Shown piece by piece: positions 4,642-51,656 of a stretch of DNA of 64,000 nucleotides. This DNA comes from Desulfovulcanus ferrireducens (GTDB taxonomy: Bacteria > Desulfobacterota > Desulfovibrionia > Desulfovibrionales > Desulfonatronovibrionaceae). The position numbers and the translations under genes were made by a program. Below the pieces are notes generated by a model. It ran no database searches. It saw nothing but the letters and a program-made list of their open reading frames with translations, and was not told where the DNA came from. Positions within the stretch are counted from its first letter, which is position 1. Each line of letters begins with the position of its first letter. The stretch covers positions 1-64,000 of the forward strand of contig NZ_JAGUQP010000001.1 of assembly GCF_018704065.1 (NCBI RefSeq), read 5' to 3'.

Positions 4642-5688
4642 ATGCAAAAAGTGTTATGCCTGGATATAGGCAGTGGTACTCAGGACGTCTTGTATTATAT
4701 TCCTGATCGGGAGATTGAGAACTGCCCGAAATTTATTCTTCCCTCGCCTGCTGTTATTGTTGGTCAGAGGATTGCACAACTGACAAAACAGGGAAAAAAT
4801 ATCTATCTTTATGGTCAAAACATGGGTGGAGGATTCAAGTTTGCTTTGAAAGGCCATTTAAAAAAGGGCCTGGAAGTAGCAGCACATCCACAGGCGGCCC
4901 TGGCCATTTCTGATGATATGCGAAAGGTGAAAGGTATGGGTATTAATATAACTGAAAACTGTCCGCCCGGGTTTTGCCCTGTGTATTTGACTGATTTTGA
5001 TCCGGGGTTCTGGCAGTCTTTTTTAGCCTTGAGCGGGCTTGATTATCCTGATTTTGTCCTGGCCTGTGTCCAGGATCATGGTTTTCACCCAGGAACAAGC
5101 AACCGCCGCGGACGGTTTGAACTTTGGGAAGACTTTTTGCGTAACTCGCAAGGACGCTTAGAAGAGCTTATATTTTCTGAACCACCACAGCAGCTTACTC
5201 GCTTAAAAAGTTTAAAAAATATGATTGGAGCTGGCATGGTCGCAGATACGGGGTCTGCTGCCATACTGGGGGCCTTGTTCGTCCCGGAAGTAGAGGAAAT
5301 GACTTCCTCTCAGGGTATTTGTGTGGTTAATGTCGGTAACAGTCATACCATTGCTTTTTTAGTCTATAAGCAAAAGGTATGGGGGATCTATGAACATCAT
5401 ACCGGGTTATTAGATGGGCAAAAGCTTATGCAGCAACTAGAACGGTTCCGACAGGGCAGCCTGACCAATGACCAGGTTTTTGCAGACAATGGGCATGGCT
5501 GTCTGGTTCTTGACTTGCCGACTGAAGCCAAAGGGTTCGAGCCTATTTTTGTCCTCGGGCCTAAACGGAAAATGCTTAAGGGTTTTGATGTCCATTTTTT
5601 GAGCCCCGGCGGAGATATGATGTTGGCAGGCTGTTTCGGGCTGCTTAAGGGAATGAACTACAGAGCCTGTGGCCAAACCCAATTTTAA
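4642..5688 (+). CDS. DUF1786 family protein (ASKHA-like fold, function unknown)
   Basis: A 348-aa protein that starts with an actin/Hsp70-like phosphate motif (LDIGSGTQD, residues 6-14) and contains a second glycine-rich motif near VVNVGNSHTIAF. This pattern fits DUF1786, a family often labelled as related to pyruvate formate-lyase activation. It has no radical-SAM CxxxCxxC motif, so that label should not be trusted. I chose the ATG at 4642, which has AAGGA 7 nt upstream, over an upstream TTG at 4627. The last few codons (…YRACGQTQF) lie inside the left arm of the interspersed repeat at 5663-5977, so the natural C-terminus may have been replaced. It appears monocistronic. Confidence 0.8.
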   Translation: MQKVLCLDIGSGTQDVLYYIPDREIENCPKFILPSPAVIVGQRIAQLTKQGKNIYLYGQNMGGGFKFALKGHLKKGLEVAAHPQAALAISDDMRKVKGMGINITENCPPGFCPVYLTDFDPGFWQSFLALSGLDYPDFVLACVQDHGFHPGTSNRRGRFELWEDFLRNSQGRLEELIFSEPPQQLTRLKSLKNMIGAGMVADTGSAAILGALFVPEVEEMTSSQGICVVNVGNSHTIAFLVYKQKVWGIYEHHTGLLDGQKLMQQLERFRQGSLTNDQVFADNGHGCLVLDLPTEAKGFEPIFVLGPKRKMLKGFDVHFLSPGGDMMLAGCFGLLKGMNYRACGQTQF

Positions 5689-21997: not shown

Positions 21998-23311
21998 ATG
22001 CCTAAACATGAAACCCCTTTGTTGGACCAGCTTGAAAGTGGTCCATGGCCAAGTTTCGTGTCTGAGATTAAGAGGCAGTCTGAGGCCAGGCATCAAAAGC
22101 AGAATGAAGTGGAATATCAAATTCCTGTTGATGTCTGTGATGACGTGTTGGGAGTCTTGGAGATGTCCTACAATGATGGCACATGTCATTGGAAGCACGG
22201 TGGGATAGTTGGAGTTTTCGGTTATGGTGGTGGTGTAATTGGTCGTTATTGTGACCAGCCAGATAAATTTCCTGGCGTTGCTCATTTTCACACCGTTCGC
22301 GTTAACCAGCCTGCTGGTAAGTACTATACTACTGAATATCTGCGCCAACTTTGCGATCTTTGGGATTTTCGCGGTTCTGGTTTAACCAATATGCATGGGT
22401 CTACTGGAGATATCGTACTTTTGGGTACCAGGACCGAGCAGTTGGAAGAAATTTTCGGCGTATTGACCCATGAAATGAATCAGGACTTGGGTGGTTCTGG
22501 CTCCAACCTGCGTACACCTGCCTGTTGCTTGGGTGAATCTCGCTGTGAGTTTGCCTGTTATGACACTCAAGAGCTTTGCTACCAATTGACCATGGAATAC
22601 CAGGATGAGTTGCACAGGCCAGCCTTCCCCTATAAATTTAAATTTAAATTTGACGGTTGTCCGAATGGCTGCGTAGCATCAATAGCCCGTTCTGATATGT
22701 CTTTTATCGGAACCTGGCGTGATGAGATCCGCATTGATCAGGAAGCAGTTGCTGCCTATATTGGTGGAGAACTGAAACCGAATGCTGGCGCTCACGCTGA
22801 TGGTGAATGGGGCCCATTCGATATCCAGAAAGAAGTTATTGATCTTTGTCCTTCACAGTGCATGAGCTTGGAGGATGGAAAGTTAGTTATTGATAATAAA
22901 GAGTGTGTACGCTGTATGCATTGTATCAATACAATGCCAAGGGCTTTGCGTATTGGTAATGATCGTGGTTTGTCCATTCTGGTTGGCGCTAAGGCCCCAA
23001 TCCTTGACGGTGCTCAGATGAGTTCTCTGCTTGTACCTTTCATTAAGGTTGAGCCTCCTTATGATGAAATTAAGGAAGTTATTGAAAATGTTTGGGATTG
23101 GTGGATGGAAGAAGGTAAAAACCGTGAGCGTTTGGGTGAGACAATCAAGCGCTTGAGTTTTCAGAAGCTTTTGGAAGTTACTGGCATCAAGCCAATGCCT
23201 CAGCATGTACAGGAACCAAGACACAATCCTTATATTTTCTGGAAAGAGGAAGAGGTTCCTGGCGGATGGCAGCGTGATATTAAAGAATTCAGAAAACTCC
23301 ATCAGAGATAG
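21998..23311 (+). CDS. dsrA: Dissimilatory sulfite reductase alpha subunit
   Basis: Cytoplasmic catalytic subunit of DsrA2B2, which reduces sulfite with DsrC as co-substrate. Siroheme-[4Fe-4S] cysteines are visible as ACCLGESRCEFACYDT near 174-189 and DGCPNGCVAS near 218-226. An inserted ferredoxin domain carries CPSQC near 285 and ECVRCMHCINTMPRAL near 302-317. The length of 437 aa is standard. A perfect AAGGAGG ribosome site precedes the ATG. It is followed by dsrB after 12 nt. Transcription is likely driven by the promoter at 21848, with possible control by a Rex-type repressor and a leader hairpin. Confidence 0.98.
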   Translation: MPKHETPLLDQLESGPWPSFVSEIKRQSEARHQKQNEVEYQIPVDVCDDVLGVLEMSYNDGTCHWKHGGIVGVFGYGGGVIGRYCDQPDKFPGVAHFHTVRVNQPAGKYYTTEYLRQLCDLWDFRGSGLTNMHGSTGDIVLLGTRTEQLEEIFGVLTHEMNQDLGGSGSNLRTPACCLGESRCEFACYDTQELCYQLTMEYQDELHRPAFPYKFKFKFDGCPNGCVASIARSDMSFIGTWRDEIRIDQEAVAAYIGGELKPNAGAHADGEWGPFDIQKEVIDLCPSQCMSLEDGKLVIDNKECVRCMHCINTMPRALRIGNDRGLSILVGAKAPILDGAQMSSLLVPFIKVEPPYDEIKEVIENVWDWWMEEGKNRERLGETIKRLSFQKLLEVTGIKPMPQHVQEPRHNPYIFWKEEEVPGGWQRDIKEFRKLHQR

Positions 23312-50453: not shown

Positions 50454-50657
50454 CTAAATCCTGTTGCAGGGGATATTGGCCAGATATTCTTCAAAAAAAT
50501 CATCCAGTTCATCACTGTACTCCTGGAGGGAAAATTTTTTATTGCATGACCTGCAATAGAGAATTATTTCCTGTCAGGTATGGTGGACGATTAGGGGCTG
50601 CTGACAGGCTTTACATTTTATCTTTGTTTGTGGACTTAAAAAAGATGACTTAAACAT
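50454..50657 (-). CDS. Candidate small selenoprotein with two CxxC motifs (in-frame UGA)
   Basis: An ATG at 50657 opens a 67-codon frame ending in TAG at 50454-50456, interrupted only by a TGA at codon 28 (50574-50576). Read with Sec (U), the protein has Cys15-x2-Cys18, then HHTUQE, then Cys35-x2-Cys38, an acidic tail and Cys64. Both CxxC pairs lie on either side of the TGA in one frame, so the coding potential continues past it. Directly after the TGA is a hairpin with a GGTCA loop (see the SECIS entry). I recall an NCBI family of small dual-CxxC (seleno)proteins in sulfate reducers that this fits. Alternative: a pseudogene with a CGA-to-TGA change. The frame is open upstream to a TAA at 50781-50783, so a TTG start at 50726 (23 more residues) is possible. 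The ribosome site is weak. Confidence 0.7.
50535..50576 (-). promoter_or_regulatory. Candidate bacterial SECIS element
   Basis: Starting at the TGA (50576), a hairpin with a perfect 7-bp upper stem (TATTGCA / TGCAATA) and loop GGTCA spans 50540-50558; a lower stem GGAAA / TTTCC can also pair. The TTGCAGGTC part is identical to the apical part of the E. coli fdhF SECIS. The distance from TGA to the loop (22 nt) is within the range known for bacterial SECIS. Confidence 0.7.
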
Positions 50658-50882
50658 TGGCTTGTACTTCAAAATTTTATGTCGTTTAGTATTCTGGTTG
50701 TGACTGGCAAGAAGTTTTTGGGCCAATTTTTCTTTAAAGATTGTGTGCTGGATATCACGGCACTTGGCTTGTCCCCTGACTTATTTTTACTTATTTTTGT
50801 AGATACACTTGCTCAGGCAATGTCATTAACAAAGAACACGTGTCAAACATGAATAGCCTTAATTTTCAACCCCTGTAATTTT

Positions 50883-51656
50883 ATGAAAAAAATCAGTCGG
50901 TTAGCAGACGAACTTATTGAAGATACCTTAAAGGAAGCCGCAGATACCTTTTTTGGGCGTAGAAAAGGTATAGAGCATGAGATCAGTCTATTTGAACAAA
51001 AGGTCCGTGAGCTAAGGCCGTTGGCTCAAAGAATTGAGCAGGCAGCCAAGAGTTTAAACTTCCTTCTTTTAAAAGGAAAAGAAGTAGAAAATTTTTGGAG
51101 GTATTTAAACGTTGAATTCCCTTTGGACTTTGACCCGGACTGGCGACTAGGGATTACCATTCCTGCCGGTCTGACCATCAAGTCCAGATATGCAAAACTT
51201 TTGGTGTACGTGTACCAAACTTTGGCGAAGGCGATTGAAGAGTACACATATGGAAAGCATGTGGAAGATACAGTTATTAAAGGCCGAAAATTGGTGACCG
51301 TCAATTATAATTTTTTACAAAGATGGGCCAGTGAAATAAATGAAAAGATAGAGAAAATTAATTATTATCAAAAGCCCAGTGATGTGTTGCAATTTGTCAA
51401 GAGAATGAATGTAGAGGAAATAGAAAAGGAAAGGATTGCCGGGGCCCCAATGAAATACAGTCTTGATAAAGACCTGCTCTTAGACAAACTGATTTTTTCA
51501 GATTATAAACTAAAAAGATATCCGGATCTCGCACGTGATGATAAAACTATTAAGCTGGTAAAGAGATTTGCCCGTGGTCTGGTTAAAAGGAATAAACAGG
51601 AAATAAAGAGGATATTAGAAGAAATAAGCAAATATGCCAGAGAGTTTTCAAAATAA
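50883..51656 (+). CDS. Unknown cytoplasmic protein overlapping uvrC
   Basis: 257 aa, highly charged and helical, no signal peptide. The N-terminal 60 residues are predicted to form a coiled coil (ADELIEDTLKEAADTFFG, then EQKVRELRPLAQRIEQA). A mid-region DPDWRLGITIPAGLTIKS looks compact. The last helix is basic. I do not recognise a family. It overlaps the uvrC start by 23 nt, so the two are translationally coupled and may share a DNA-repair role, which is inference from position only. Confidence 0.7.
   Translation: MKKISRLADELIEDTLKEAADTFFGRRKGIEHEISLFEQKVRELRPLAQRIEQAAKSLNFLLLKGKEVENFWRYLNVEFPLDFDPDWRLGITIPAGLTIKSRYAKLLVYVYQTLAKAIEEYTYGKHVEDTVIKGRKLVTVNYNFLQRWASEINEKIEKINYYQKPSDVLQFVKRMNVEEIEKERIAGAPMKYSLDKDLLLDKLIFSDYKLKRYPDLARDDKTIKLVKRFARGLVKRNKQEIKRILEEISKYAREFSK

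Follow-up and report, generated by a model that had tools for sequence, protein, structure and literature searches.

Does an in-frame TGA in a short reading frame of Desulfovulcanus ferrireducens specify selenocysteine (Sec) or mark a broken gene, and, if the former, what might the product do? The question is raised by positions 50657-50454 of the minus strand of the window, by which we mean the whole stretch of 64,000 nucleotides that was analysed (positions 1 to 64,000 of contig NZ_JAGUQP010000001.1, assembly GCF_018704065.1). The host is a dsrA-bearing Desulfovibrionales bacterium and, presumably, a sulfate reducer.

A 67-codon frame interrupted by TGA

A sequence-only reading had described this locus as a hidden small selenoprotein gene, a 67-codon frame with a TGA (50574-50576, minus) between two CxxC pairs and a SECIS hairpin behind it. 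Re-reading the frame bore this out: 67 codons are followed by TAG, the only internal stop is the TGA at 50576-50574, between CKAC and CRSC, and the translation of minus 50657-50454 is MFKSSFLSPQTKIKCKACQQPLIVHHTUQEIILYCRSCNKKFSLQEYSDELDDFFEEYLANIPCNRI*. The features on which the analysis turns are as follows.

50454..50657, minus: very probable selenoprotein gene of the OS_HP3 family (NF041197), 67 residues, ATG start at 50657-50655, TAG stop at 50456-50454
50604..50615, minus: CKAC, first CxxC (residues 15-18), putative zinc knuckle
50574..50576, minus: in-frame TGA, predicted to be read as Sec, residue 28; of the homologous loci, 74 have TGA here and 45 a Cys codon
50544..50555, minus: CRSC, second CxxC (residues 35-38), putative zinc knuckle, whose codons contribute to the SECIS stem and loop
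50540..50558, minus: predicted apical hairpin of a bacterial SECIS, 7-bp stem, GGTCA loop, 22 nt past the TGA, outer pairs covarying in Sec but not Cys forms

Standard ORF calling does miss the gene, as had been stated, because the ORF list holds only a shortened piece (50574-50726) that ends at the TGA. The gene is hidden in that sense, but the family to which it belongs is not new and stands in a published catalogue.

All of the machinery for which the earlier reading had suggested a search is present in the genome, that is selA, selB, selD and a tRNA-Sec with a UCA anticodon (selC). The selD match (L180, G000:C5:70624-71550) itself contains one in-frame TGA, and SelD is probably a selenoprotein; therefore, TGA is probably read as Sec elsewhere in this genome too. 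A HesB-like match with one in-frame TGA lies on the same contig past the window (G000:C1:105737-105931); it scores below the TIGR01911 cut-off and is probably another selenoprotein.

The Sec/Cys column and the hairpin

With Sec read as Cys, the product scored 81.8 bits against NF041197 (cut-off 40) over profile positions 1-53 of 53. This family, named 'dual CXXC motif small (seleno)protein', is the one to which the sequence-only reading referred as dual-CxxC small (seleno)proteins in this lineage, and it is real. A 2026 review lists OS_HP3 under NF041197 with the motif RxU, the Olavius algarvensis Delta 1 symbiont and Zhang and Gladyshev 2007 (PMC13188914). The family is already catalogued, without an assigned function, and was first described in 2007; a new selenoprotein family was considered and ruled out because the gene belongs to NF041197. 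In its size class, the position of Sec between the two CxxC pairs, its C-terminal NR/DR motif and a score far above the cut-off, the gene resembles OS_HP3, whereas the second residue ahead of its Sec is His (HTU), where Arg is usual (RxU); otherwise it is an ordinary member.

Relatives matched the family or its sister clade (see below) in 135 of 150 cases. At the column of the TGA, the 119 canonical loci carry TGA in 74, a Cys codon in 45 and any other codon in none. Cys does, as was to be checked, replace the TGA in some homologues, and Arg (CGA), which together with an unconserved hairpin had been named as the sign of a nonsense mutation, occurs at 0 of the 119 loci while the hairpin covaries in the Sec forms. 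Sec or Cys is strictly kept at this column, most other positions are variable, and most homologues remain coding downstream of the TGA as far as a DR or NR motif at the C-terminus. About six changes between Sec and Cys are needed on a tree of 147 sequences, at least three of them forced by well-supported branches; because this tree rests on just 53 columns, its deeper branching is unsure. One genome (G032) has a Cys form while its relatives in the same genus have Sec forms. In one Cys-form branch (L150, L151, L152, L153, L154, L157 and L158) the C-terminus IIYD replaces the DR motif, and upstream of the genes of this branch sits one that, judged by eye, resembles orotate phosphoribosyltransferase.

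A bacterial SECIS is a hairpin just past the UGA with a guanine at the start of the loop, which lies ~16 to 37 nt from the UGA. The hairpin reported here fits this description: the arms TATTGCA (50558-50552) and TGCAATA (50546-50540) form seven perfect pairs around GGTCA, as the sequence-only reading had it, and the spacing of 22 nt falls within the range generally accepted. The claimed identity with the apical part of the Escherichia coli fdhF SECIS was checked against the K-12 record, which reads TGACACGGCCCATCGGTTGCAGGTCTGCACC; nine bases, TTGCAGGTC, are common to both, with GGTC in the loop, whereas the remainder of the stem is unlike and the distance from UGA to GGTC is 22 nt here and 18 nt in fdhF.

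Folding of this gene alone gave a mixed picture. A 61-nt stretch had a folding z of -3.5 and none of 200 dinucleotide shuffles folded as well, while a 51-nt stretch had a z of -2.1 and 9 of 200 shuffles folded as well. Against synonymous-codon shuffles the folding energy was weak (p about 0.10) because the two TGC codons of the CxxC already fix two of the seven stem pairs, and we therefore relied on a comparative test, which is the strong evidence for the predicted hairpin. We compared 71 distinct Sec forms with 44 Cys forms, taking the T of TGA as base 0; no gaps are needed to align the codons, since Sec and the second CxxC are always the same distance apart. Among the Sec forms, bases 20 and 34 are CG in 47 and TA in 15 and are paired in 66 of 71 (maximum of 500 shuffles, 62), and bases 19 and 35 are GC in 45, AT in 14, CG in two and TA in two and are paired in 65 of 71 (maximum of 500 shuffles, 56), with the proviso that the counts are drawn from related sequences and that the shuffle comparison is therefore not a probability. 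In the Cys forms the same pairs are formed in 19 and 13 of 44, respectively, no better than in shuffled sequences. All five informative pairs are formed in 38 of the 71 Sec forms versus one of the 44 Cys forms, and base 24 is mostly A in Sec forms (e.g. in AGG or AAG codons) and mostly C in Cys forms. The comparison indicates that the predicted hairpin is under selection, with covariation restricted to the Sec forms.

These data bear directly on the alternative that a once-open gene was broken by the TGA and that the hairpin is a by-product of the CxxC codons. Such a nonsense mutation would account for the unexceptional folding of the single gene under synonymous shuffling (p about 0.10) and for the two stem pairs that derive from Cys codons. 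It would leave unexplained a TGA in the same column at 74 loci in many genera, with Cys elsewhere and never Arg or Trp, a coding sequence that in most members stays conserved beyond the TGA as far as the DR motif at the C-terminus, and hairpin covariation confined to Sec forms. We consider it refuted by the conserved TGA column, its remaining likelihood being negligible. On the complete Sec machinery, the Sec/Cys-only column and the hairpin that covaries in Sec forms only, the selenoprotein reading stands, and we conclude with near certainty, from comparison of sequences, that minus 50657-50454 is a genuine selenoprotein gene of family NF041197 (OS_HP3). In the cell, SelB carrying Sec-tRNA would bind the hairpin just past the UGA, Sec would be inserted, and the ribosome would continue to the TAG at 50456.

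Predicted fold and the sister clade

AlphaFold2, run with family alignments, gave zinc-ribbon-like models with a mean pLDDT of 72 (canonical protein) and 84 (sister). Both models place Sec between the two short strands that link the CxxC knuckles, at the hairpin turn and outside the four knuckle Cys. Foldseek found no match at E <= 0.001, and the best structural matches, with zinc ribbons such as that of RNA polymerase chain 'I', were weak (Z 3 to 4). The model resembles these RPB9/C11-type ribbons in having two CxxC knuckles on beta-hairpins, but with a Z of just 3 to 4 common descent is not claimed, and we know of no counterpart of the tip Sec in them. The product is probably a zinc ribbon with Sec at its tip, judging from these models of modest confidence, and a redox or metal-binding function, as suggested in the sequence-only reading, is plausible.

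The genome contains a second TGA-bearing copy (L048:4001-4138, corresponding to G000:C3:56800-56937, minus). It belongs to a clade that is separate from the canonical clade (support 100/99), has the motif GxU and the CxxC-Sec-CxxC layout, lacks the DR terminus and retains Sec in 31 of 32 members; scores of the clade straddle the NF041197 cut-off. A 'hypothetical protein DW' was described in a 2025 deep-Sep paper (PMC12013277) and is placed under NF041197 with the motif GxU in the 2026 review (PMC13188914). Because motif, family and lineage agree, and not on the basis of a deposited sequence, the sister clade is apparently DW, and a novel sister family is thereby ruled out. The canonical gene studied here differs from the DW type in its clade, its terminus and its clear match to the family. 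In one genome (G370) the canonical and sister genes lie 4 kb apart on one contig (L144:985-1143 and 5062-5238), and yedF (selenium metabolism, TIGR03527) is just downstream of the canonical gene.

Association with dsrA and a possible role

We used dsrA as a marker in a sample of 297 Desulfobacterota genomes and counted the family including its sister; one canonical locus, G055:C150, which is grouped as sister in the neighbour listing, lies outside this sample and outside the counts by GTDB family. dsrA was present in 78 of 81 genomes with the family or sister versus 66 of 216 without, counting as positive a genome (G050) that has two dsrA fragments with scores just under the cut-off. The exceptions are two incomplete genomes (G190, 67% complete; G259, 76% complete) and G193, whose match comprises 30 residues with two stops. 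By GTDB family, and with the doubtful G193 match excluded, dsrA was found in 33 of 33 with a match to the selenoprotein family or its sister versus 18 of 63 without. As a control, the HesB-like selenoprotein family in the same genomes coincided with dsrA in 85 of 153, and nearly all of the sampled genomes have selA; therefore, the restriction to dsrA is not general to selenoproteins. The reverse does not hold: 15 Desulfovibrionales genomes lack the family, and 11 of them have dsrA. A limited search of the literature found no mention of a function or a dsr link for the family. We take the near-confinement to dsrA-bearing genomes as a lead, it being a correlation within one phylum that is not cleanly separable from lineage or from the physiology of sulfate reducers.

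Gene neighbourhoods differ between the two clades. In 5 of the 18 GTDB families that have both, the sister gene and dsrA are no more than about 6 kb apart, for which random placement gives a chance of about 7e-8 (a rough figure). G325 carries the sister gene 0.2 kb upstream of dsrA and dsrB, all on one strand; G410 and others have it on the opposite strand, flanked by dsrMKJOP and a TPR gene (neighbours in G410 were named by profiles, DsrK on the strength of a 300-residue piece that scored slightly under the cut-off). Near the sister and dsr genes (L138, L145, L143, L131 and relatives), a conserved set recurs in several families, comprising a TPR protein, a ~570-residue protein that begins with what resembles a zinc knuckle, and Cys-rich proteins. 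The canonical gene is without dsr neighbours, the dsrA of the window being 27 kb off at 22022-23287, and its neighbours, which change between lineages, are mostly housekeeping genes, e.g. uvrC, trpS and a CCA-enzyme-like gene (named by eye). Looking to its conserved neighbours for hints of function yielded nothing beyond single lineages. One such neighbour, a divergent plus-strand gene at window positions 50883-51656, encodes a 257-residue protein without an NCBIfam match and has stayed next to the selenoprotein gene across 14 genomes from the same GTDB family.

Because the family is nearly confined to dsrA genomes and the sister clade lies beside dsr genes, we infer that the protein works in connection with dissimilatory sulfite metabolism, a reading whose chances we put at even. 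In the mechanism that we have in mind, the two CxxC pairs would bind one metal ion and form a small zinc ribbon, and Sec would be exposed at the tip of the beta-hairpin between the knuckles, as in the AlphaFold2 models. We propose tentatively, as a possibility somewhat short of likely, that the tip Sec acts as a nucleophile that swaps electrons or sulfane sulfur with a thiol, either of a protein or of a small molecule. The protein would serve either dissimilatory sulfite reduction itself or the handling of the sulfide and polysulfide that arise from it. More speculative is the suggestion, which we regard as doubtful in this specific form, that OS_HP3 and DW are an ancient paralogous pair of zinc-ribbon selenoproteins serving dissimilatory sulfite reduction, e.g. 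by Sec-tipped thiol or persulfide transfer to DsrC or DsrMKJOP.

Two other readings accept the selenoprotein and differ on its role. The protein may have nothing to do with sulfite reduction and serve, for instance, general thiol repair or metal handling in strict anaerobes, the dsr correlation then reflecting shared ancestry and habitat; the housekeeping neighbours of the canonical gene (uvrC, trpS, CCA-enzyme-like), the sampling of one phylum and the existence of other dsrA-bearing genomes without the family are in keeping with this, and we hold it to be a real possibility, a little under even. Against it, the dsrA restriction persists by GTDB family (33/33), the HesB-like selenoprotein family in the same sample shows no such restriction, and the sister clade lies beside dsr genes in five families. 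Alternatively, the product may be a regulator or adaptor whose zinc ribbon binds nucleic acid or protein without any catalysis, Sec then sensing redox state or being purely structural, an idea to which the weak structural likeness to zinc ribbons of the transcription and translation machinery lends itself. Sec is seldom retained in proteins without a chemical role, and in a family that is variable at most other positions this column admits nothing but Sec or Cys; we consider a regulator or adaptor of this kind unlikely.

The gene adds another genome to a widespread selenoprotein family, catalogued but nameless, and what is new here is the dsr association and the Sec-tip model, both offered as testable functional leads. 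If the dsr link is causal, the family would be an overlooked selenium-dependent component of sulfate respiration, a globally important process. If the paralogue-pair reading is true, OS_HP3 and DW would be small accessory factors of sulfate respiration that had previously gone unassigned.
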